Shown here piece by piece: positions 2,258 through 21,464 of a stretch of 64,000 bases of DNA. How positions within the stretch are numbered: position 1 is the stretch's first letter; each line of letters starts with the position of its first letter. The DNA is taken from assembly GCA_947463915.1 (NCBI GenBank), contig CANHVO010000002.1, forward strand, positions 1 to 64,000. Reading direction: 5' to 3'. Made by a program: the position numbers and the translations under genes. The notes beneath the pieces were generated by a model. It saw nothing but the letters and a program-made list of their open reading frames with translations, was not told the origin of the DNA and did no database searches. This DNA comes from Planctomycetaceae bacterium. Its GTDB lineage: Bacteria > Planctomycetota > Planctomycetia > Pirellulales > Pirellulaceae.

Positions 2258-5200
2258 ATGACGAGCCCTACTCCGAATAGCGACTTTTCGGCTTCGAACG
2301 AAGGCGATTTCAGCTTGAGCCTGATCGGGCAAACGAGCGGATTCGAGCACATAGGTAAGCTCGAAGAAACGAGTGCGGACAACTCCAATACTCGCCCTTC
2401 TCCCAAAGGCAGACGAGCAAAAGGGGCTGAGCCCCGCCGAATAGGAGGCTACGAACTCGAAGCGCTCATCGGTCAAGGAGGAATGGGCCGGGTGTATCGA
2501 GCCGAAGATTCGACCGGCCGTTTTGTTGCTCTGAAATTGCTGTCCCCGGACTTAGCACGGTCAACGGAAGCTTTGGCGCGATTCAAACAGGAAGGCCTCA
2601 TTGCTGGCCAACTGAATCATCCGCATTGCGTCTTTGTTCACCGTGTCGATGAGGACTCGGGAACTCCGTTCATTGCGATGGAACTCATGACCGGACAAAC
2701 GCTCAAAGACCTTGTTTTGCTGCGAGGTGCACTTCCCTATCAAGAAGCAGTCCGGTTGATTCTGCAATGCATCGACGGATTGATTGCAGCGCACGCGATT
2801 GGAATGATCCATCGAGATATCAAGCCCGCCAATTGCTATCTCGACGATACGGGAAATGTCAAAGTCGGAGACTTTGGATTGGCTCGGTCGTTGGTAGGGG
2901 ATTCGGATCTAACGCAGACAGGCGCTTTTCTTGGAACGCCCCTTTTTGCCTCCCCTGAGCAATTGATTGGTCAAGCCATTGATACGCGTTCGGATATCTA
3001 TTCGTTGACTGCGACGCTCTATTACCTGTTAGCAGGCAAAGCTCCGTTTGAATCTCCTCATCCCGCGCAAGTGATCGCCAAGATTGTTTCCGCAGAACCA
3101 CCCAACTTCCAGTCTGCGGGCATTGATATCCCCCCAGCCCTCGAACGTATCGTCATGAAGGGATTGGAACGCGACACGTCCAAACGCTACGCTTCGTTTG
3201 ATCAAATGCGATACGATCTCGAAGATGCCCTCCAGCCGAAATCGGAAGCAACCACACTGTCGCGTCGCGCGCTGGCTTGGATTGGTGACTACTTCATCAT
3301 AACAACGATCGTTGGGGGCGTCCTGCTCTTGATAGCAATGCTAAGCGACGCGACCAAGAATCCTTTCTCAGCAAATCTGGTTTCGACCGTTTTAGTTTTC
3401 TTCTATTTCCTCGGTCAAGAATCTCTGTTTTCGACAAGCGTTGGCAAAGCCGCCATGCGAATCGCGGTCGTTGACAAGAAAACGGGACTGCATCCAAGCT
3501 TAATTCAAGTGCTGACTCGATCTCTAATCTATGTCATCACGTCGAGTCTACCCATTCTTGTGGTCAAGTACCTACTACCGCTAATGGACTCTCAATGGGA
3601 AGCGTTGTTGTTTTGTTGTTCCGTCATCCTCAATGCGGCTCTAATGCTTTCGACATGGCCAGCCACAAAGAAGCGACAATTGCTACACGACTGGGTTAGC
3701 GGCACTGAGTGTCGCACACAAATTGCCGCGACATCGAATGCTCCAACCAAATTAGCGATTCCCGATTGGAAGCTACCACTCACGACCAGCTTGAGGAATC
3801 CAAAAGCAATGCCTGAAACGATTGGGCGTTTTTCCATCGAAGGGGAGATTGCAATTCAGCCAATGGACCACGGCGCTCGGTGGTTTTTGGCTCGAGATCG
3901 ACAACTTGATAGGGCAATCTGGATAGCATCTTTGGACGGCATATCCTATGCTTTAGCTGGAGCCCAATTTTGCAAATCAAAATCCATGAGGCTTCGTTTG
4001 GTAGAAGAAGGGACCACGGGCGAATCGCATTGGTTTGCTTTTGTAGCCACCGAAGGTATCCCGCTTCAAGAATGCGTGAACCGTGGTATCCAATTCCCCT
4101 GGCCGATCACTCGTTCCGTCTTGACTGAGTATGCGGAGCTGAACATGCTCGTCGGTGATCTTCAAGGTGAGACCGATATGCAAACACTCGAGCACTTAAT
4201 CCGTCCAGAGCGAATATGGATTGAGCCCTCTGGCCGCCTAACGATTGTCGATTTCGTTCTCGAGGAACCGACTGCATCCCGCTCAAAGGCCGGCTCCATC
4301 CAGCAAAGCTTTGTTCGACAAGTTGCTTTTCTAGGCTTGCCCGCGAGCCACCCGCTTCGAACATCGAAAAGTTCTCATACCGTTGCCCCTACCGTACCCC
4401 ATATCGATGGACTCCCGTCGTTGCGGGCCTACAAGCTATTGGAAGCGATTGCGTCGAACAAGCTTGAGCCTACATTGGGGCAACTCTCCGAAGAGCTTGA
4501 CAGGATCAACAAGAACTCCCAAGGAATAACGAATAGACTTCGTTTTTTATCGGCATCGGTGACAGTTGGACTCATGAGTCCGCTGATGTTCCTTGCCGTG
4601 GTTATGTTGTTTTTGCCATCGATCCTTCAATCGACTAAGCTTTTCAACGAGGTCCGGCACATCAAATCGCTGGCCGCGTTCGCCAAAGAACCTGAGCGAT
4701 TCCAGAATGCCTGGGCCCTTGCATCTCCTGAGGCAAAAAGTTATTGGACGCAGGAAGAGAATCAAATGAGAATTCAAAAGACGCTGGAGAAACAATCCTA
4801 TCGATTAGAATCCGCATGGGATCAGTTAGGTAACGTAGAGCGGTTCGTTATCAAGTCGATTTCGCCCGTTGACAGGCCATTCACAAAGCCCCCGACATAC
4901 AGTGCGGACGCAGATTCTGGAACCGAAGTAATCGACGTCCAACTCATGGCAAACATTATGGCCAGTGTTGATCCGATCGCGATGAGAGAGAGTGAAGTGG
5001 CTGGATTTCCTGATGGTCAATTGATCGGAATTGGTATTCTCATCTGCATATTGTGGACCACAGTTACGCTCGGCGGCATCGTTCAGTATTTTACAGGTAC
5101 CTGCATTTGCAATTGGGATGGGCGAAGCCTCGGACTACTGCAGAGTTTTTGGAGAGCGACAGCCCTTTATCTTCCAATCTTCGGATTGGCCATGTCCATC

Positions 5201-5359
5201 GTATACTGCAATGCGCTCGGGTTGGATTACGTTTGGTACGGAACTCAGCTGAAACGCATTTTCCTCATCGTTCCAATCGCTGTCTTGGCTACCACGGTCC
5301 TGTGGTCTCGAAAAACACCGTTGGATGTAATATCCAACACGGTCATGATTCCAAGATAA
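2258..5359 (+). CDS. Ser/Thr protein kinase with RDD membrane domain, second degenerate kinase-like domain and C-terminal TM domain
   Basis: GQGGMGRVYRA, VALKLL, HRDIKPANC and DFGLA motifs; RDD-like membrane segment; second 'GRFSIEGEI...' kinase-like region; start ATG at 2258 preferred over the 2207 start in the track. Confidence 0.88.
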   Translation: MTSPTPNSDFSASNEGDFSLSLIGQTSGFEHIGKLEETSADNSNTRPSPKGRRAKGAEPRRIGGYELEALIGQGGMGRVYRAEDSTGRFVALKLLSPDLARSTEALARFKQEGLIAGQLNHPHCVFVHRVDEDSGTPFIAMELMTGQTLKDLVLLRGALPYQEAVRLILQCIDGLIAAHAIGMIHRDIKPANCYLDDTGNVKVGDFGLARSLVGDSDLTQTGAFLGTPLFASPEQLIGQAIDTRSDIYSLTATLYYLLAGKAPFESPHPAQVIAKIVSAEPPNFQSAGIDIPPALERIVMKGLERDTSKRYASFDQMRYDLEDALQPKSEATTLSRRALAWIGDYFIITTIVGGVLLLIAMLSDATKNPFSANLVSTVLVFFYFLGQESLFSTSVGKAAMRIAVVDKKTGLHPSLIQVLTRSLIYVITSSLPILVVKYLLPLMDSQWEALLFCCSVILNAALMLSTWPATKKRQLLHDWVSGTECRTQIAATSNAPTKLAIPDWKLPLTTSLRNPKAMPETIGRFSIEGEIAIQPMDHGARWFLARDRQLDRAIWIASLDGISYALAGAQFCKSKSMRLRLVEEGTTGESHWFAFVATEGIPLQECVNRGIQFPWPITRSVLTEYAELNMLVGDLQGETDMQTLEHLIRPERIWIEPSGRLTIVDFVLEEPTASRSKAGSIQQSFVRQVAFLGLPASHPLRTSKSSHTVAPTVPHIDGLPSLRAYKLLEAIASNKLEPTLGQLSEELDRINKNSQGITNRLRFLSASVTVGLMSPLMFLAVVMLFLPSILQSTKLFNEVRHIKSLAAFAKEPERFQNAWALASPEAKSYWTQEENQMRIQKTLEKQSYRLESAWDQLGNVERFVIKSISPVDRPFTKPPTYSADADSGTEVIDVQLMANIMASVDPIAMRESEVAGFPDGQLIGIGILICILWTTVTLGGIVQYFTGTCICNWDGRSLGLLQSFWRATALYLPIFGLAMSIVYCNALGLDYVWYGTQLKRIFLIVPIAVLATTVLWSRKTPLDVISNTVMIPR

Positions 5360-5392: not shown

Positions 5393-6541
5393 CTAAATTG
5401 CAGTCCATTTTTCGAGCCGTGAAAAAATGCTCGCCCGCTGTTCAGGTGACGCGTTGCTTACTTGATCGAAACGGCCGTTGAGTGCATCACGAGCATCGTC
5501 TAAGAACCATTCAAAACACTCTGCGCCACGGTTCATGAGCAGATCAAATACTTTGTCCGCGCCGGCGACAATCGCCCAACCGGCGGGCGAATTGTTGTGT
5601 ATCTTCCCTGACCTTGCATTGATGTCAGCGCCGACATCGACAAGCGCTCCTGCCGAAACCGGGCAGTTGTTCCAGGCAGCCATATGCAACGGAGTCGCGT
5701 GATCGTACCCACCCCGAATATCGGGCGTTAAGCCTCGCTTCACCAACATAGCAACCGATTCACGTTGATCGCTCTTTGCAGCAGCATGCAAGGGAGTGGA
5801 ATCGCCGCCGATCGAGAACGTCAAAATGTTATGCACATCATGTTCGTTTCCAGGCGGAAAGAACGACTGATTGATTCGAGCATGAATGAGTTCTGGATTG
5901 GCGTTCAAGAGTCGGTCCAGGGTATCAATGCTTCCGCAGAGTACCGCTGAAAAGATGTCTGGGGATGCTCCTTTGGTCAAGAGGAACCGTGCGACCTCTG
6001 GACGCGTGCTACACAGGTATTGCACTGGGGTACTGTAGTGGTCGATACATCTGCCGTCAATTTCGGCTCCACGATCGAGCAGGAGCTCGGCCACGTCGAC
6101 TGTGTCTGCAAAATGGAGAGGGTGACATCCATCGCCTCCCTTTTCCACCACACGAGCAGGATCGTCATCAAGTAAACGTGTGACCTCACTGCATCGTCCC
6201 AAGCCTGCTGCGGTGTGGACGTCCATTAGTGCACCATGCGAGAGCAGATACTCAGACAAACGTTCGTCTCGGCGAAAGAGCGCGCAATGCAACGGGCTCC
6301 AAGGCCCCATGTTCCAGTCGCTCTTCCTGTTTGGATCGGCTCCCATCTCGATAAGCGCCTCGACTACGGCGGGACGATTGCTAAAGCAAGCCGCCGTCAG
6401 TGGTGTCGCGCCAAAATTGCGGTAGTCAAAACTGTTGAGTATTCCAGGGTCGTCGGCAACGTAAGCTCGCATTCGCTCGATGTTTCCGGCGGCGAGTGCA
6501 TGGAAGAAAGCCATTTGCTCGGGTGTATTATGCTTAACCAT
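5393..6541 (-). CDS. Ankyrin-repeat protein
   Basis: Multiple ANK signatures ('GATPLTAACFSNRPAVVEALIEMGADPN', 'STPLHAAAKSDQRESVAMLVKRG', 'ATPLHMAAWNNCPVSAGALVDVGADINA'); internal ATG (MVKHNTPEQ) at 6541 preferred. Confidence 0.88.
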   Translation of the reverse strand: MVKHNTPEQMAFFHALAAGNIERMRAYVADDPGILNSFDYRNFGATPLTAACFSNRPAVVEALIEMGADPNRKSDWNMGPWSPLHCALFRRDERLSEYLLSHGALMDVHTAAGLGRCSEVTRLLDDDPARVVEKGGDGCHPLHFADTVDVAELLLDRGAEIDGRCIDHYSTPVQYLCSTRPEVARFLLTKGASPDIFSAVLCGSIDTLDRLLNANPELIHARINQSFFPPGNEHDVHNILTFSIGGDSTPLHAAAKSDQRESVAMLVKRGLTPDIRGGYDHATPLHMAAWNNCPVSAGALVDVGADINARSGKIHNNSPAGWAIVAGADKVFDLLMNRGAECFEWFLDDARDALNGRFDQVSNASPEQRASIFSRLEKWTAI

Positions 6542-6626
6542 TTCGATCCTGAGATTTGCGAACGCATGATCGTCATGCGAGGCGACAAGTGATGAACGTT
6601 GAGTCAGGATATCCAGACCAACGCTC

Positions 6627-6668
6627 AAATACAATTTACGTTGGAACAAATACGATTTACGTTGGAAC
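6627..6668. repeat. Two-copy 21-bp tandem repeat (aaatac[a/g]atttacgttggaac)
   Basis: Direct reading: two adjacent 21-mers with one mismatch, upstream of the ankyrin gene. Confidence 0.85.
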
Positions 6669-6746: not shown

Positions 6747-7012
6747 TTTGCAGCTTTGACAGTACGCATCCCCTTCCCCACCAAGCCTATCGGGGGCGTT
6801 CAGCAAAAAAGTTTCAATAAAGAACTTTTTGCGAGTGACAATCTTCCGGCCTTTCGGCCTTTGAGAAAGTCTTTGCGAGGATTGAATTAGTTGAGGTTCT
6901 TGGCGAAAATGGCGTGGATTCCTGGTTGAGGCATGGAACCGTTTCCTCGGTTTATGCTTCTCAATCCTCTAGATTCCACCCAATTCCAATCATTCCCACC
7001 CTAAGGCAAAAC

Positions 7013-7633
7013 ATGACGAGCGAGGCGATAACATTGCTCCATGAAGCCAAACAGGGTGGTGCTCGCGAACAGGGTAAGCTTCTCGCTCTTTACGCGAATT
7101 ACCTCAAAATTATGGCCCAGACTCAGCTTGATCGGCGTATCAGGCGACGCGTCAGCCCATCGGACTTGGTCCAAGAGACCTTGCTGGAAGCCCATCGTGA
7201 TTTTTCCGACTTCCGCGGAGCAACCAACGCGGAGTTTGTCGGGTGGCTTCGCCAAATCTTGGTCCACAATCTCATCCGCGTTACGGAAAAACACTTACAG
7301 GCGGACAAAAGAGACGTTCGACGCGAGGTTTATATTCATAAGCTCAATGCGTCACTCGAACACTCCAGTTCGCGATTCGAACATGTCTTGGCCGCGCCTT
7401 TCGAAAGCCCTAGCTCCGAGCTGGGACGCCATGAACGAATGCGGTTGCTCGCGGACGCCATTGCAGAGCTACCTGCGGAACAGCGACAGGTCATCATCCT
7501 GCGGCACATCGAGGGGTTGCCATTTGCTGAAATTGCGGGGCAAATGGAACGATCTTCGGGGGCCTGCCGCATGTTATGGCTTCGTGCGATGGATCAACTC
7601 CGAGGGAAATTGGACGGAATGGAATTCGAATGA
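7013..7633 (+). CDS. ECF-type RNA polymerase sigma factor
   Basis: 'RRRVSPSDLVQETLLEAHRDFSDFRG' (sigma2) and 'LPAEQRQVIILRHIEGLPFAEIAGQMERSSGACRMLWLRAMDQLR' (sigma4); ATG at 7013 preferred. Confidence 0.92.
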   Translation: MTSEAITLLHEAKQGGAREQGKLLALYANYLKIMAQTQLDRRIRRRVSPSDLVQETLLEAHRDFSDFRGATNAEFVGWLRQILVHNLIRVTEKHLQADKRDVRREVYIHKLNASLEHSSSRFEHVLAAPFESPSSELGRHERMRLLADAIAELPAEQRQVIILRHIEGLPFAEIAGQMERSSGACRMLWLRAMDQLRGKLDGMEFE

Positions 7634-10329
7634 GAACCGACGCATCCGTTCACGACTATGCCAGCCAACTTTCGCCGGAACAGCAGGAGCAACTTGCTGT
7701 CATTCTGGACCAGTACTTGGTGGAGATCGAGGGAGGCACTGAACCGAACCTAGACGAGCTTTGCGATCAACATATCGAACTGGCACCTGCAATTCGCCAT
7801 TACGTTCAAAGTTTGCGGATTCTCAAAGTTGCAGCAACCGATGTCCGAGACAAATCCAACCGTCAACATCAACAGTCGGATATCCCGACGAAGCAAATCG
7901 GTGACTACCAAATTGTTCGCGAAATCGGCCGCGGCGGAATGGGAGTTGTTTACGAAGCGCACCAAATCTCCTTAGGGCGCCGCGTCGCATTGAAGCTGCT
8001 CCCCTTTGCCGCTGTTCTTGACCAACGTCAGATCGCACGCTTCCAAAACGAAGCTCAAGCGGCTGCGCAACTGCACCACCCGCACATCGTGCCCGTTTAT
8101 GCAATCGGCAATGATCGCGGCACTTATTTTTACAGCATGCAATTTATTGACGGACAATCGCTTGAGCAAGCGATAGCGAGTCTGCAGTCGGGCTTTGACG
8201 CCTGGACACCGTCAAGCCACTTGCCCAAAAGTTTTTCGGCGAGCTCTATTGATCGAGACGGGACAACCATCGAAGCCGCCTTGATCGACGACTTGTTAGT
8301 ACCGTCTCGAGACACACCCACTGCATTTAGGACGAATTCTTCCGAGCAGACCGAGTCGATTCGGCAGGTTGCAACCCACGTTTCGGTTCGATCCAGCAAT
8401 CACGTGAGGCGAATCGCCGAGCTTGGCATTCAAGCCGCGGATGCGTTGCATTTCGCCCATCAGCATGGGATCGTACATCGTGATATCAAGCCGTCCAATT
8501 TGCTTATCGATCGAGAAGGCAAACTTTGGATCGCGGATTTCGGGCTAGCTCAATGCGCTGGCTCGGGAAGCCTAACACGATCTGGCGATATTGTTGGTAC
8601 CCTTCGTTACATGAGTCCAGAGCAAGCGACCGGCAAAACGCACTGGATCGACAATCGCACGGACATCTACTCGCTTGGATTGACCTTGTATGAACTCCTA
8701 ACGCTTCATCCCGCCGTCGATAGCGATGATCGATTGACTATGTTGCGGCAAATCGAAAACGAGGAGCCAAAAGCACCGAGAAGAATCAATTCAGCGATTC
8801 CAGTTGATCTTGAAAACATCGTCATGAAGTCGATCTCGAAAGAGCGAGAGGACCGCTATGCAACAGCGGGTGACCTGGCAGCAGACTTGCAGCGTTGGCT
8901 CGACGGCAAAGTCATCTTGGCTCGGCGCCCTTCACTCATGGATCGCTCGGCGAGGTGGATTGCAAAGAACGCGCGTGCCGTGGCTTGTCTGTTGCTCGCA
9001 ATGTGTGTTTTGTTCGCGGCAGCGACCGTCACAGCTTCCCTGTTTCGAGCCAAGAATCAAGAAATCCGAACAGCAAATGAGCGAGCACTGCAGCACCTTG
9101 AGGTTGCGAACAACGTGGTGGATCAATTTGGTGCACAAATGCTCACCAAGCTAGAATGGGTGGCAGGTACTGAGGATCTACAACAAGAAGTTGCCCAGAA
9201 CTCGATTGAGTACCTGACTGCATTTGCAGAGTATGCGGCGATGGACCCTAATCAGGTTGTTCAAGTGGGGCGTGCATCGCTGAAGCTAGCTCAACTTTAT
9301 GAACTGCGTGGCGAAAACGATGCAGCAATCGCGGCATACCGCCGCTCGCTCGAGCATCTCGACAAACACCGATTAACGAATCGCGAAATGGGCGAGCTTA
9401 GCCAAGATCTTTTTACATGTCGGAACAATCTTGGCTGCGTACTGATGCGAAGTGGTCGCTTCAATGAAGCGGCCGACTGCTTCAAACTATGCTTGAATTC
9501 CATCGAAGAAGATCACCGAGACCAAGTCGCATATGAGAATCCATCTGGTTTATGTAGAGCTCTAGCCCAACTAAATCTTGGGCATCTTTACTTCGAACGT
9601 GGTGAGCCTCGTTCGGCTCGCGTTGAGTTCGAAGCGGCGATGAGTACTTTGCGAACGGCCGCTTCTAGCTCCATCGCGATCAACCGATTGCTCGTCACGG
9701 TATTGCTCCAAATTTCCTCGAGTGAAAACAACGAGAGTGAACTCGCGATGGAGATGCTGACCCGAGCTTTGGAGCTAGCCGAGGCGAACGCAAGCCTGCA
9801 ATCCGATGCGGCTCCTGAACTCCATGAGGTATGCGTCTGCCAGCTTGCTCTGGGTGCGAAGTGCGCCAAAGCCAAAAACATTTCGCTAGCTATTGTTTGG
9901 TTTGAAAAGGCTGCGGCTGGACTCAATCGGTTGTCTGCGAAAAACCCCACGAATGTTCGTTTCCTGAGCGACCAAGCCAGTGCGTTGAACAATCTTGGGC
10001 AAATGGAAATGGAAGCGGGAACGACGGTTGTGGCATTAAAGTCGTTCACCGCATCAAGGAAAATCCTCGAAGGACTAGCGGCGAATTCGTCGGATTATGT
10101 AATACAGAGCAATTTAGGCGGGGTCTTGAACAATCAAGCTCTCGCCGAGGAAAATCTTGGGAACATGGAAACCGCAAAACGATTGTTGACACAAGCGATT
10201 GAGGTCCAAAGGCAAGCGGTTCAATCGGCCCCGGATAGCACACGTTGCCAAGCGTTTTTAAAAGAACATGAACAGCATTTGCTTCGAGTGTCAAGCAAAG
10301 TTACGATGAATCGAGATCAGCCGTTATGA
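7630..10329 (+). CDS. Ser/Thr protein kinase with TM helix and TPR repeats
   Basis: GRGGMGVVYEA, VALKLLP, HRDIKPSN, DFGLAQ; TM segment 'AVACLLLAMCVLFAAATVTASLF'; TPR-rich C-terminus; ATG overlaps the sigma stop (ATGA). Confidence 0.93.
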   Translation: MRTDASVHDYASQLSPEQQEQLAVILDQYLVEIEGGTEPNLDELCDQHIELAPAIRHYVQSLRILKVAATDVRDKSNRQHQQSDIPTKQIGDYQIVREIGRGGMGVVYEAHQISLGRRVALKLLPFAAVLDQRQIARFQNEAQAAAQLHHPHIVPVYAIGNDRGTYFYSMQFIDGQSLEQAIASLQSGFDAWTPSSHLPKSFSASSIDRDGTTIEAALIDDLLVPSRDTPTAFRTNSSEQTESIRQVATHVSVRSSNHVRRIAELGIQAADALHFAHQHGIVHRDIKPSNLLIDREGKLWIADFGLAQCAGSGSLTRSGDIVGTLRYMSPEQATGKTHWIDNRTDIYSLGLTLYELLTLHPAVDSDDRLTMLRQIENEEPKAPRRINSAIPVDLENIVMKSISKEREDRYATAGDLAADLQRWLDGKVILARRPSLMDRSARWIAKNARAVACLLLAMCVLFAAATVTASLFRAKNQEIRTANERALQHLEVANNVVDQFGAQMLTKLEWVAGTEDLQQEVAQNSIEYLTAFAEYAAMDPNQVVQVGRASLKLAQLYELRGENDAAIAAYRRSLEHLDKHRLTNREMGELSQDLFTCRNNLGCVLMRSGRFNEAADCFKLCLNSIEEDHRDQVAYENPSGLCRALAQLNLGHLYFERGEPRSARVEFEAAMSTLRTAASSSIAINRLLVTVLLQISSSENNESELAMEMLTRALELAEANASLQSDAAPELHEVCVCQLALGAKCAKAKNISLAIVWFEKAAAGLNRLSAKNPTNVRFLSDQASALNNLGQMEMEAGTTVVALKSFTASRKILEGLAANSSDYVIQSNLGGVLNNQALAEENLGNMETAKRLLTQAIEVQRQAVQSAPDSTRCQAFLKEHEQHLLRVSSKVTMNRDQPL

Positions 10330-11990
10330 TAAACTCCAAGTCAAGTTTCATCGCTAGGCGAACAACGCGAAGACGATTTGCGCATTGCATTCGACGCTGT
10401 ATCGGTTTAGAACGTCTCGAGAGGCGAACGGTTTTCGCAAGCGATTTCGGTGCGAATCTGGAAGCCCATCTATTGGCGTGTAGCGTTGACGAAATGCAAC
10501 CTGAAGCGTTGGTGGAGCCCGTATCAACACCGGCATCCCAAGTCCGATCCGAGTCCGTTTACCAACCGAGCCCACGAAATAGTTCGTTCGAGATTGCAAG
10601 CTCATCTATTTCACTTGAAAACGGGGACCTCTTGGTGATTGAGGTCCCTTCAGCCTCATTCGCTGACATGCCCATCTATGACTCGTATCTATTTACGTAT
10701 AGTTATGCGCAAAATTACTTCTCGGATACCATCGGACAAGAGCTGGCTGCAATCAACTTCCAAGCGCTAGCGCAAGCCAGCGGTGCTTGGTCTACTAATG
10801 CAAGGTCTGCTGTTGATGGTTTCGTTGGGGCAGGCTCTCTTCCTTTAGGAACTGAATCGGAGACACTCGAGAACCAATTGCAGCCCTCAGATCGAACCAT
10901 CGTTTTGGCAAGCTTAACTGCGACCACCGACTTCGATGCAACCATTCGTGTGTTCGACAATTCTCAAGTTGATTCTCTTGTTGGTTCTAGACAATCCGAT
11001 TTCGGCATTAGGCAACTCCCAAGCGAAATACGAATCGAACCAAACTTGACTAGCGCAACGGTATTGCCCTATCCAGGTCCGACCATCACTCGAACGATCA
11101 TCGTAAATCGACAAGCCGACGGTTTGGTTGTCCAGGAGCAACCAACAAAGCAGTTTGGGCCAATGAAGCCTGAGCCAACAGAACGACAAGTATCCGACAG
11201 TGGTCTTGACGCAAATTCCGCTCTCATTTCGGCATCCGCTTCCAGTCAAACCTCGGTGACGAAGCCTAGTCGACCTGCCGTAACGATTAAGACGATTGAA
11301 ATCTCCCAAGTGCGACGTCACGAAGCCGCTAGACCGTGGCTGCGTTCAACCGTAGTTCAGACCCCTGCTCGACAACGCGACTTTGGTTTTGAAAAGAAGC
11401 CGACGATCGTCACCGCAAATGCAACCACTCCTCCACTGTCTCAGCCGACGAGTGCAAACAAATCTGAAAAGGGCGCGAAGTGGAATTCTCGAGTTTCAGC
11501 CACACGGCTGCAGCCTGTTGAATTCTTGTTAGCACCTCGTGATTTAGAAACCGAAAAAGTAGCCATCTTAGAGGCGAGGGCACCAGTTTCTACGGACGTT
11601 GCGATGGGCAGTTACTCCAATGTCAGCCAAATCGATCGCTTGGAAGATGAGGTTTTTCTGGACTGGCTCAGCGCAAGTGGACTCGGCATTCAAGCAGGTT
11701 CCTTAAGCTCCGAGGAATCGAGTGGTCAAAGCCCTTCGGCGCGGCATGGAAGCGAAGCATGGTTTTTGGCGATGACAACCGAGATGCAACGGCTGGCACA
11801 ATATCCGCCTGCGAATGCGAATCGAGACACCTGGAAAAGTTTAGTTCGATCGGCGTCGGAATCCGCTGCTGGCCAAGCCATTCTGGCGACGTTGTCGACC
11901 ATTTCAATGCAGCAAAAGGAAATGACTGCCTTTGACTCAAAGTCTGCCTGGGAATACGTGACTAAGGCGCACCAAAGCAGTCAAACATAG
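10326..11990 (+). CDS. Hypothetical protein, probably exported, with planctomycete 'LE(R/P)R'-type N-terminal motif
   Basis: ATGA overlap with the kinase gene; basic N-terminus followed by 'CIGLERLERRTVFAS'; low-complexity Ser/Thr/Gln-rich body. Confidence 0.75.
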   Translation: MINSKSSFIARRTTRRRFAHCIRRCIGLERLERRTVFASDFGANLEAHLLACSVDEMQPEALVEPVSTPASQVRSESVYQPSPRNSSFEIASSSISLENGDLLVIEVPSASFADMPIYDSYLFTYSYAQNYFSDTIGQELAAINFQALAQASGAWSTNARSAVDGFVGAGSLPLGTESETLENQLQPSDRTIVLASLTATTDFDATIRVFDNSQVDSLVGSRQSDFGIRQLPSEIRIEPNLTSATVLPYPGPTITRTIIVNRQADGLVVQEQPTKQFGPMKPEPTERQVSDSGLDANSALISASASSQTSVTKPSRPAVTIKTIEISQVRRHEAARPWLRSTVVQTPARQRDFGFEKKPTIVTANATTPPLSQPTSANKSEKGAKWNSRVSATRLQPVEFLLAPRDLETEKVAILEARAPVSTDVAMGSYSNVSQIDRLEDEVFLDWLSASGLGIQAGSLSSEESSGQSPSARHGSEAWFLAMTTEMQRLAQYPPANANRDTWKSLVRSASESAAGQAILATLSTISMQQKEMTAFDSKSAWEYVTKAHQSSQT

Positions 11991-12292: not shown

Positions 12293-13174
12293 ATGGCAGT
12301 CCTAACCCAACCAATTAAATGGCACGGCGGCAAATACTATCTGCGCAAGTGGATTGTTGGGCTAATGCCCCCGCATCTTCATTACGTGGAACCGTTCTTT
12401 GGCGGTGGTGGCATTCTGTTGGCGAGAGACCCTGATAAAGATTGGATGGCAACCGAAACCGAGAAATCGCCGACGGCAAAGCTTCCGGCTGCGATTCAGG
12501 GTAGCAGTGAGGTTGCAAACGATCTTCATGGCGAATTGATCAACTTTTGGCGAGTCTTGCAGAATCCGGAGGACTTTGAGGGTTTTCGGAAGCGAATCGA
12601 AATGACTCCCTTTAGCGAAGCGGAGTTCGATGACGCGTTGGAGAGTTCGAGTTCAGGTAAACCAGCCAGCAACCTAGAGCGAGCGGTTCGGTTTTTTATC
12701 CTTGCGCGCCAGTCGAGACAAGGACTGATGAAGGACTTCGCAACGCTTTCGCGAAATCGAACCCGAAGCCGGATCAATGAACAAGTTTCGGCTTGGCTGA
12801 ACGTGATCGAGGGGCTGCCCGATGTGCACCAGCGACTCCGCAATGTCGTAATTTTGAATCAAAGCGCATGTGACGTTATTCGCAAACAAGACGGGGAAAA
12901 CACGTTGTTCTACTGCGACCCGCCCTATGTTCATGAAACTCGGTCTACGACGGGGGAATATGCCTTTGAGATGACGGAGGATCAGCATCGCGAGTTGCTG
13001 GACCTACTAGCGGGGATTTCCGGTAAATTTATGTTGAGCGGCTACCCGAGCAAACTCTATCAGGAATGGGAAGTCCGGCACGGTTGGAAACGGCACGAGT
13101 TCTTAATCGACAACAAAGCGGCTGCAGGTAAAGTCAAGGAAACGAAGACAGAATGTCTTTGGTGCAATTTCTAG
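12293..13174 (+). CDS. D12-class N6-adenine DNA methyltransferase (Dam-like)
   Basis: 'KWHGGKYYLRKWIVGLMPPHLHYVEPFFGGGGILL' (SAM motif), 'NDLHGELINFWRVLQ', catalytic 'FYCDPPYVHETR'. Confidence 0.93.
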   Translation: MAVLTQPIKWHGGKYYLRKWIVGLMPPHLHYVEPFFGGGGILLARDPDKDWMATETEKSPTAKLPAAIQGSSEVANDLHGELINFWRVLQNPEDFEGFRKRIEMTPFSEAEFDDALESSSSGKPASNLERAVRFFILARQSRQGLMKDFATLSRNRTRSRINEQVSAWLNVIEGLPDVHQRLRNVVILNQSACDVIRKQDGENTLFYCDPPYVHETRSTTGEYAFEMTEDQHRELLDLLAGISGKFMLSGYPSKLYQEWEVRHGWKRHEFLIDNKAAAGKVKETKTECLWCNF

Positions 13175-18436: not shown

Positions 18437-19963
18437 ATGAATCGCCAGAGCCTCGTCTTGATTGGATCGGGTGTTGTATTTGTTGCAATGCTGTTGTTAA
18501 TGAATGCGTCGACATCAACAAAGCCCTCTCGCAACAGCGGCGAGAAAGAAATGGAGCCGCTGGTCGTATTCTGTGCGGCTAGCAATCGAGCCGTTATGGA
18601 ATCGATTCGAACGCAATACGAAAAGGAGTATCATCGGCCCATTCAAATTCAGTATGGTGCCTCACAGACGCTGCTTTCTGCGATCGAGGTTAGCGGGACT
18701 GGAGATATCTATTTGCCAGCAGACGATAGTTTCATCGAACTAGGTACATCCAAAGGCTTGATCAGCGAAGTGTTCCCGTTGGCATCGATGAACGGTGTTA
18801 TCGCTGTTCGCCGTGGGAACCCCAAAAACATTAAGGACTTCTCCGATCTGTTGCAACCTGAGATACGATTGGTTCAGGCGAGCACAGAAGCATCTGCGAT
18901 TGGCAAGAAAACGAAATCCGTACTTTCTGAAGAGCAACGGTGGGCTCCATTAGAGAACGCAACGATTGCTTTTCGAACCACCGTGACGGATGTCGCGAAC
19001 GACTTGGTGGTCCAATCGGCCGACGCCGGAATTGTATACGATGCGATTTTGAAATCGTATCCGGATCTGGAGTCGATCCAACTACCGGAGCTTAAAGGGA
19101 TCGTTTCCAGGGTATCTCTCGGTGTCATTTCGAGTTCAACGCAACCGCAGGCGTCTCTGCATTTTGCTCGCTACGTAGCAGCCAAGGATCGAGGACTGAA
19201 GCACTATCAGGAACAAGGGTTTCAAGTGGGTAGCGGTGATGCCTGGAGCGATGTACCTGAGCTGGCGATCTTTGCCGGTTCGATGCTTCGCCCTGCTATC
19301 GAAGATACGTTGGTAGCGTTTGAAAAACGGGAAGGGGTGCGAGTGACTCGGGTTTACAATGGATGTGGAGTCTTAGTGGCACAAATGAAAGCGGGCCAGC
19401 GACCCGATGCTTATTTTGCGTGCGATCGTGAGTTCATGTCCCAGGTAACTGATCTGTTCCCGAAACCAATTGATGTGTCGATGAACGAACTTGTCATATT
19501 AGTACAAAAAGGGAACCCAATGGAAATCAACTCGTTGCGAGATTTAACAAAGAAAGGGCTTCGAGTCGGAATCGGTCATGAAAAGCAGTGCGCGATGGGT
19601 TGGTTGACACAGAACACTTTCCGCCAGGGAGGGTTACAAACCGAAGTGATGGAGAATGTGACTGTTCAATCGCCGACGGGAGACATGTTGGTAAACCAGA
19701 TGCGAGCTGGGGCGTTGGATGCGGCGGTAGCTTATTTGAGCAACGCGGCTGGTTCCGCGGAACATCTAGATGCAATCCCTATTGAGGGATTATCCTGTTC
19801 GCTCGCCATCCAACCGTTTGCGGTTGCGGATGGATCACCCAATGCTCAATTGGCGCAACGGTTGTTTCACAAGCTTTGTTCGGTGGAGTCCCAGGAGATC
19901 TTCGAGGCCGAAGGTTTTCGTTGGCAAGCTCCACTGACGTCGGTCAAACCGTTAGCACCCTAA
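18437..19963 (+). CDS. Tandem-fused molybdate/oxyanion ABC substrate-binding protein (two ModA-like domains)
   Basis: Domain 1 'PLVVFCAASNRAVMESIRTQYEKEY...GASQTLLSAIEVSGTGDIYLPAD'; domain 2 'ELAIFAGSMLRPAIEDTLVAFEKREGVRVTRVYNGCGVLVAQMKAGQRPDAYFACD'. Confidence 0.88.
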   Translation: MNRQSLVLIGSGVVFVAMLLLMNASTSTKPSRNSGEKEMEPLVVFCAASNRAVMESIRTQYEKEYHRPIQIQYGASQTLLSAIEVSGTGDIYLPADDSFIELGTSKGLISEVFPLASMNGVIAVRRGNPKNIKDFSDLLQPEIRLVQASTEASAIGKKTKSVLSEEQRWAPLENATIAFRTTVTDVANDLVVQSADAGIVYDAILKSYPDLESIQLPELKGIVSRVSLGVISSSTQPQASLHFARYVAAKDRGLKHYQEQGFQVGSGDAWSDVPELAIFAGSMLRPAIEDTLVAFEKREGVRVTRVYNGCGVLVAQMKAGQRPDAYFACDREFMSQVTDLFPKPIDVSMNELVILVQKGNPMEINSLRDLTKKGLRVGIGHEKQCAMGWLTQNTFRQGGLQTEVMENVTVQSPTGDMLVNQMRAGALDAAVAYLSNAAGSAEHLDAIPIEGLSCSLAIQPFAVADGSPNAQLAQRLFHKLCSVESQEIFEAEGFRWQAPLTSVKPLAP

Positions 19964-20826
19964 TGTCGGACCAAAAATCAAGTGAAATAAGTCAAGCGAA
20001 AAACGCCAATTGGACTCCAAGACGCCGCTCTGATGCATTGTTCTTTTTGGTCATGGGTGGCATTTCGGCCTGTTTCGTCCTGCTGATCATTTTGTTGTTG
20101 GCAGCTGATATTTTGTTTACGACGCCTCGTAACTTTTACGAAGCGCTTGCAAAACCTGAGATCCGCGCGGCGGTTCAATTGACGCTATTTTCATGCACCG
20201 CTGCCGCCATCTTGTCTATTTGGGTTGGGACTCCGCTTGGCTATTTGCTGTCGCGTTACTCGTTTCGAGGGCGTTGGCTAATCGACACTTTGGTCGATAT
20301 TCCAATTGTTTTGCCACCGCTGGTGCTGGGGCTTAGTTTGTTGATCCTGTTTCATCAGCCAATATTTGGGCTGCAGTTGGAGAGCATCTTTCGCGATTCG
20401 ATAGGCTTTCCAGTTACCTATCGTTGGCCGGCGGTGGTGCTTGCGCAATTCTCAGTCGCCTGTGCCTTTTCCGTTCGGACGATGCGGGTAACTTTTGACC
20501 AGATGAACCCAAGAGCCGAGGAGGTAGCACGAACACTTGGCTGCACCCGAGGACAAGCGTTTTGGCAAATCGCACTTCCACAAGCACGCAGAGGCATTAT
20601 TACGGCATTTACGATCGCATGGGCGCGGGCACTTGGCGAATTTGGTCCGATCTTAGTCTTTGCTGGCGCAACGCGGATGCGCACCGAGGTCCTGTCGACA
20701 TCCGTGTTTTTGGAGCTGAGCGTTGGCAACTTGGATGCCGCGGTTGCTGTTTCACTCTTGATGGTGATATTGGCTGTGATTGTTCTCTTGATTTTGCGAG
20801 CTTTCGGAACGGGGTTGAATACGTGA
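19963..20826 (+). CDS. modB: Molybdate-type ABC transporter permease
   Basis: Multiple TM helices; EAA-loop region 'EEVARTLGCTRGQAFWQIALPQARRGIITAFTIAWARALGEFGPILVFAGATRMRTEVL'; ATG overlaps the preceding TAA. Confidence 0.9.
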   Translation: MSDQKSSEISQAKNANWTPRRRSDALFFLVMGGISACFVLLIILLLAADILFTTPRNFYEALAKPEIRAAVQLTLFSCTAAAILSIWVGTPLGYLLSRYSFRGRWLIDTLVDIPIVLPPLVLGLSLLILFHQPIFGLQLESIFRDSIGFPVTYRWPAVVLAQFSVACAFSVRTMRVTFDQMNPRAEEVARTLGCTRGQAFWQIALPQARRGIITAFTIAWARALGEFGPILVFAGATRMRTEVLSTSVFLELSVGNLDAAVAVSLLMVILAVIVLLILRAFGTGLNT

Positions 20827-21464
20827 TCGAACTTCGCAATGTCACGTTAAAGAGCGGAGCGTTTTCACTGGCTGGAGTTAACTTGTTCGTGCCTTCAGGC
20901 AGGTACGCGGTATTGATGGGACCGACCGGTCGAGGTAAGACCACATTGTTAGAGAGTATTTGTGGTTTGCGAAAGGTTGCTACGGGGCAGATTCTGATCC
21001 ATGGTCAAGACGTGACGCATTGGAACCCAGCCGACCGGCAGATTGGTTACGTACCTCAAGACTTGGCATTGTTTCCAACATTGACGGTTCGCGAGCATCT
21101 TGAGTTTGCGATGCGACTTCGCAAAAGATCAGGTGCCGAAATGGCTGCACGAACAGGTGAGTTGGCTGAGGTTCTCGGAATCACGCACTTGCTGAAGCGT
21201 TCGATCGCAGGGCTGAGTGGAGGTGAATCGCAACGGGTCGCCTTGGGCAGAGCACTGTCGTTCAAGCCACCTGTATTATTGCTGGACGAACCCTTGAGCG
21301 CACTGGACGAAGCAACTCGAAATGACATGCATGCGTTGCTGCGACGCGTGAAGGAAACCTCAAGCGTAACAACGCTCCATGTTACGCACAGCCTTGCCGA
21401 GTCGGAATCACTCGCCGATTGTTCCCTTTGGCTAAACCAAGACGGAATTCTGGATCGCGGCTGA
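20823..21464 (+). CDS. modC: Molybdate-type ABC transporter ATP-binding protein
   Basis: Walker A 'GPTGRGKTTL', 'LSGGESQRVALGRAL', Walker B 'VLLLDEPLSALD'; GTG start overlaps modB stop (GTGA). Confidence 0.9.
   Translation: MIELRNVTLKSGAFSLAGVNLFVPSGRYAVLMGPTGRGKTTLLESICGLRKVATGQILIHGQDVTHWNPADRQIGYVPQDLALFPTLTVREHLEFAMRLRKRSGAEMAARTGELAEVLGITHLLKRSIAGLSGGESQRVALGRALSFKPPVLLLDEPLSALDEATRNDMHALLRRVKETSSVTTLHVTHSLAESESLADCSLWLNQDGILDRG

Follow-up and report, generated by a model that had tools for sequence, protein, structure and literature searches.

A planctomycete membrane protein that joins an active-looking Ser/Thr kinase to a degenerate kinase domain between two RDD modules

The gene at 2258–5359 of the window (the whole 64,000-nucleotide stretch of planctomycete DNA analysed here) encodes a protein that runs from a Ser/Thr kinase (kinase 1) through an RDD membrane domain and a degenerate kinase domain (domain 2) to what appears to be a second, divergent RDD; by its sequence it looks like a doubled kinase-RDD module whose second kinase has degenerated. 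A first-pass annotation made from the letters alone had proposed a kinase, an RDD-like segment, a kinase-like segment and a transmembrane (TM) region in this order, which Pfam, profile methods and the predicted fold bore out. It had also placed a pseudokinase and an active kinase on one membrane protein, and this agrees with the kinase fold and lost catalytic residues of domain 2 and with the recurrence of the arrangement in ~50 planctomycete and 6 acidobacterial proteins. An in-frame TTG at 2207, upstream of the ATG at 2258, is a possible alternative start, and Pfam matches in the protein beyond Pkinase and RDD were kinase relatives or noise. The gene and its parts are:

2258..5359, + strand: gene of the kinase-RDD-pseudokinase-RDD protein (ATG at 2258, stop at 5359; 1033 aa; full-length relatives exist)
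2435..3232, + strand: Hanks-type Ser/Thr kinase domain, active-looking (residues 60–325; Pfam Pkinase)
3257..3709, + strand: RDD1 membrane domain (residues 334–484; 4 predicted TM helices; RDD residues R337, D344 and D478)
3815..4513, + strand: predicted pseudokinase domain (residues 520–752; hhalign, HMM, AlphaFold2/Foldseek and residue census)
4535..5356, + strand: RDD2 (residues 760–1033; TM5, a loop of ~136 aa, TM6–TM8 and a terminal 'TPLDVISNT' RDD motif)
4616..4999, + strand: TM5–TM6 loop, predicted to be extracytoplasmic, candidate sensor (about residues 787–914; from hydropathy, with sidedness inferred)

Kinase 1 carries the Gly loop, VAIK lysine, HRD and DFG that define Hanks-type Ser/Thr kinases. 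Pfam Pkinase covered residues 65–312 well above threshold (5.4e-41), and K93, HRDIKPAN at 185–192 (HRD at 185–187) and DFG at 205–207 confirm the intact kinase that the first-pass annotation had recognised from its lysine, HRDIKPAN and DFG. Of 50 kinase-1 domains extracted, 49 keep all three motifs (Lys, HRD, DFG); in the other one the bases at HRD are unread. Two narrower identities were rejected: the NCBIfam matches to PASTA kinases were generic, with all scores far below cut-off, and the PADLOC matches to the defence kinases PD-T4-6 and mad6 covered the kinase core only.

As a single sequence, domain 2 found no kinase in Pfam, phmmer or PDB searches, therefore profiles and structure were needed to exclude an unrelated fold. 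When domain 2 was aligned by hhalign (alignment of 17 sequences) against kinase 1 of the same proteins, the match scored 45.5 (E 4.7e-6) and ran collinearly from beta-1 to DFG; a reversed alignment and 199 column-shuffled controls all scored 21.0 or less (mean 13.1). A domain-2 HMM (15 rows) matched Mycobacterium tuberculosis PknA in the PDB (6e-4) over the N-lobe and then the C-lobe as far as DFG, in the correct order, and matched ordinary kinases of planctomycete genomes at 1e-7 to 1e-10. An AlphaFold2 model of domain 2 (7-row alignment; pLDDT 76, pTM 0.73) placed strands and helices in kinase order, and in our reading its predicted elements correspond to beta-1 through alpha-I. Foldseek with this model returned 1940 PDB chains at E ≤ 1e-3, and protein kinases made up 50/50 of the matches listed, including the bacterial PknI, PknA and PknB. 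TM-scores of these listed matches were modest (0.36–0.54), which would fit a C-lobe that is shortened and lobes that are oriented differently in the model. By profile alignment, HMM and predicted structure, domain 2 is a protein-kinase fold; the structure prediction that the first-pass annotation had recommended for this region returned a kinase and not an unrelated fold.

The catalytic residues of domain 2 were counted across 51 sequences (50 non-redundant planctomycete relatives and the window copy). The VAIK lysine was found in 1/51, the HRD aspartate in 2/51 and the DFG glycine in 1/51, and the Gly loop was not conserved. The DFG aspartate is still there in 38/51, and the window copy reads DFV, with Asp and Phe remaining. 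The losses of Gly loop, VAIK lysine and HRD noted in the first-pass annotation therefore stand, whereas its complete loss of DFG does not. The VAIK alanine lines the adenine pocket in kinases; in domain 2 its position is taken by W555 in the window and by Trp in 46/51 aligned relatives (one duplicate counted), a residue that should fill the pocket and block ATP. Domain 2 also has its own set of near-invariant positions (G523, D547, L550, R552, W555, R578, R580, W592, G600 and W615). It evolves faster than kinase 1 (41% versus 82% identity between the window and its relative L028), and between the two closest relatives dN/dS is 0.15 for domain 2 and 0.03 for kinase 1. Domain 2 is under purifying selection, looser than that on kinase 1, and given its dN/dS it is maintained, with a different job.

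RDD1 was matched by Pfam RDD at residues 333–481 above threshold (4.6e-17), and its R337, D344 and D478 are invariant columns. RDD2 keeps R762 and D1023, has lost the TM1 aspartate, and aligned to RDD1 by hhalign with Prob 97 and E 1.2e-10. Pfam RDD gave the window RDD2 10.9 bits, below the gathering score of 24.1, and exceeded the cut-off in 4/6 other members tested. By these profile comparisons the TM region at the C-terminus is probably another RDD, as its earlier description as RDD-like had anticipated. The TM5–TM6 loop of ~136 residues, absent from the first-pass annotation, is long in Pirellula-type members and 1–24 aa in others. Since RDD1 of the window protein has four TM helices by hydropathy (as has RDD2), domain 2 is likely on the same side of the membrane as kinase 1; this placement is likely and not proven, because RDD1 hydropathy yields 2–5 TM helices across different members. 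Both kinase domains would then be cytoplasmic and the TM5–TM6 loop outside. One RDD protein has been reported to transport cations (PMC5996927), so by analogy, and speculatively, ions or the state of the membrane may be what the paired RDDs sense. The RDD-family Na+(Li+,K+)/H+ antiporter of Halobacillus shares the membrane domain family and the conserved R, D and D (PMC5996927); it is a stand-alone protein, whereas the RDDs of the window protein are fused to kinases and any transport by them is putative.

The planctomycete set comprised 50 non-redundant loci, 48 of them complete and two (L083 and L149) cut by contig ends. Kinase, RDD, pseudokinase and RDD occur in that order in 47/48 complete planctomycete members and in the 6 acidobacterial members. 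Locus L154 (3305–4951, + strand) holds a complete ORF of 549 aa, apparently soluble, in which kinase 1 and the pseudokinase are linked by ~25 residues without any RDD. Having lost or never had both RDDs, L154 hints that kinase and pseudokinase are the functional unit: the two remain joined even without membrane modules, which speaks for their working together. Domain 2 apart from an active kinase was never found among the complete loci examined. Strict domain-2 matches (E ≤ 1e-14) occurred in 54/241 genomes of the family and in 10/392 sampled across the phylum; 6/149 sampled Acidobacteriota genomes matched at 5e-28 or better. Among 141 Myxococcota genomes there were only weak domain-2 matches, in two genomes, and the two loci read were ordinary kinases.

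In trees, kinase 1 and domain 2 were each monophyletic, therefore the pair, as judged from its sequences, has one ancient origin. A joint clade of the two was not rejected (p-AU 0.867, likelihood 25.8 higher), with long branches in play. Parsimony favours, and does not prove, derivation of domain 2 by duplication of the same protein's kinase 1 over derivation from another kinase. Single kinase-RDD proteins occur in the same planctomycete genomes as family members. Three of them (G000:C155, G006:C1:4230645 and G012:C340) are frames of 525–600 aa with 31–32% identity to the kinase-RDD part of the window protein; judged from match length only, they leave no room for another kinase-like domain plus RDD2, and are candidates for the ancestor-type module.

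ECF sigma genes adjoin 18/50 planctomycete loci: a sigma-factor-like gene of a first type lies directly upstream on the same strand in 15, and one of a second type in 3 more. Two to three of the 6 acidobacterial loci also have sigma neighbours (L228 and L229 of the first type; L225 by a weak match to the second). No sigma gene is adjacent to the window gene or to the copies of its close genus relatives. Because Planctomycetes commonly carry sigma genes paired with kinase genes, a sigma neighbour does not set this family apart. The window has such a pair separate from the 2258–5359 gene, an ECF sigma gene at 6914–7633 overlapping a kinase-TPR gene at 7576–10329. An acidic DAED-like motif (DAQD, AAED, SAED and the like) was present in 16/17 sigma sequences of the first type, L161 not being read by the search. 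In the EcfP/PknT system, DAED function is restored by phosphorylation (PMC8103513); because the family-linked sigmas mostly keep an acidic motif, that mechanism does not transfer directly. An ECF43-type, STPK-regulated sigma system does not fit: no sigma lies next to the window gene, and the first-type sigmas that were read at the motif carry acidic residues rather than an uncharged, S/T-containing DAED replacement.

A second kind of neighbour, an FHA-domain kinase gene with HRN in place of HRD (FHA-pseudokinase), was found at 8/50 loci (L132, at 9724–11076; L133, L139, L140, L141, L156, L158 and L082). HRN was present in 8/8, and the DFG position reads D[FL]M where readable. The gene is divergent and adjacent in 7 loci and in tandem (downstream) in L082, always beside short-loop members. 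At 7/50 loci (L080, L083, L138, L146, L160, L166 and L167) a recurring downstream gene family also lies beside short-loop members; the one scanned, in L138, combines a Cys-rich N-terminus with a DUF4190 membrane domain. Neither an FHA-pseudokinase gene nor a DUF4190-family gene was found near the window gene. Across planctomycete loci a long TM5–TM6 loop went with sigma in 17/17 measurable cases, and a short loop with FHA or DUF4190-type neighbours in 15/15. We dropped this pairing as evidence, as shared ancestry confounds it and acidobacterial L228 looks like a counterexample (901 aa, RDD2 match beginning ~20 residues past domain 2, sigma-linked).

We consider it an even call that the window protein is a sensor kinase of the membrane, regulated in cis by its pseudokinase; the domain order is observed, and the regulation is what we infer. 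Doubling of a kinase-RDD module would have made a transmembrane signalling protein, with kinase 1 as the active Hanks-type Ser/Thr kinase and the second copy turned into a non-catalytic pseudokinase, presumably lying on the cytoplasmic side like kinase 1 and flanked by two RDD bundles of four helices each. Either the RDD bundles or, in the window member, the long TM5–TM6 loop could sense a stimulus, which would most likely alter the packing of the pseudokinase on kinase 1, switching kinase activity in a manner like the in-cis control by JAK JH2. As output, targets would be phosphorylated on Ser/Thr, and in many relatives an adjacent ECF sigma factor is plausibly involved. For the window protein we infer topology, sensing, allosteric switching and substrates alike. 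That the pseudokinase regulates the active kinase of the same chain is plausible since the pair stays together even in L154, without RDD domains; the full-length AlphaFold model (pTM 0.46) is too weak for inter-domain interfaces. More tentatively, the family might be a JAK-like class of bacterial receptor kinases, not previously described and present in at least two phyla, in which an ancient kinase-RDD duplication left a dead copy that acts allosterically in cis, either as a brake or as an activator, with the paired RDD bundles providing the coupling to ECF sigma or FHA-pseudokinase partners.

The main rival to in-cis regulation, somewhat doubtful but a serious contender, makes the pseudokinase a phospho-regulated docking scaffold that is phosphorylated by kinase 1 or a partner kinase and recruits FHA or another effector to the membrane. 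The FHA-pseudokinase gene at 8/50 loci fits it, as does the mycobacterial pseudokinase MviN, which recruits FhaA (PMC12599244), and the near-invariant Arg, Trp and Gly of the N-lobe could form a binding surface; FHA neighbours, however, accompany only short-loop members, with none near the window gene. The DFG aspartate in 38/51 could instead point to a retained non-canonical catalytic or nucleotide-binding role, such as AMPylation or glutamylation as in SelO or SidJ, but we consider this improbable, with VAIK lysine, HRD aspartate and Gly loop not conserved and Trp at the VAIK alanine in 46/51, which should block ATP. Very unlikely indeed is a decaying duplicate without function: domain 2 does evolve faster than kinase 1, but a dN/dS of 0.15, near-invariant residues peculiar to the family, presence in every complete member and one ancient origin all speak for maintenance. 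As for a domain 2 unrelated to kinases, suggested by the empty Pfam and phmmer searches with a single sequence, we find it scarcely credible when profile, HMM and fold evidence all give a kinase.

An active kinase and a pseudokinase on one membrane-coupled chain is a layout best known from animals, in the JAK kinases (JH2-JH1). In the window protein the order is reversed (active kinase first), an RDD bundle follows each kinase, and the origin is independent. Among bacterial pseudokinases, MviN/ActPs3 resembles domain 2 in being a membrane-protein pseudokinase, the MviN type with all three motifs lost, and its catalytic loop 'LSIDHPSR' looks similar to the domain-2 consensus 'LSLDQ'; ActPs3 is annotated primarily in actinobacteria and has no active kinase on the same chain, whereas the window protein has one (PMC12599244). 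In a comparison of sequence only, the domain-2 profile returned kinases from the PDB and not MviN, which gives no sign of similarity to ActPs3. EssB/YukC is, like domain 2, a membrane pseudokinase with degraded motifs and Gly loop and a short activation loop, but is a type VII secretion component with neither active kinase nor RDD (PMC12599244). The GLW pseudokinases share a bulky hydrophobic residue in the ATP site and membrane association; they are proteobacterial, with HRD changed to GLW and Lys to Leu/Trp (PMC12599244), whereas domain 2 has variable sequence for HRD and Trp at the VAIK alanine.

A 2025 review of bacterial pseudokinase families lists no family from planctomycetes and none linked to RDD, and its text contains neither word (PMC12599244), and a planctomycete kinase study mentions neither RDD nor pseudokinases (PMC11032199). 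Our search of the open-access literature on RDD with pseudokinases or on planctomycete kinases found no prior description; within that literature the kinase-RDD-pseudokinase-RDD family appears undescribed, and no described bacterial pseudokinase family appears to match it. Bacterial pseudokinases are largely unexplored experimentally (PMC12599244). The family looks like a conserved bacterial counterpart, with its own history, of the animal layout of kinase plus dead kinase, and would offer a tractable way to ask whether pseudokinases evolve into regulators in cis again and again. Some members of the very large planctomycete kinomes would also gain a role.

Around the gene, the ~1.4 kb upstream (800–2257) holds no convincing gene. 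The longest ORF that it fully contains on the forward strand has 95 aa (1091–1378) and a hydrophobic N-terminus. Convergent with the gene, at 5393–6649 on the − strand, lies a gene for a 418-aa ankyrin-repeat protein. Further along the window are a DNA adenine methyltransferase-like ORF at 12293–13174 (WHGGKYYLRKWI ... DPPY, by eye) and molybdate-type ABC transporter genes at 18437–21464, whose binding protein (18437–19963) looks by eye like two fused ModA-type domains.
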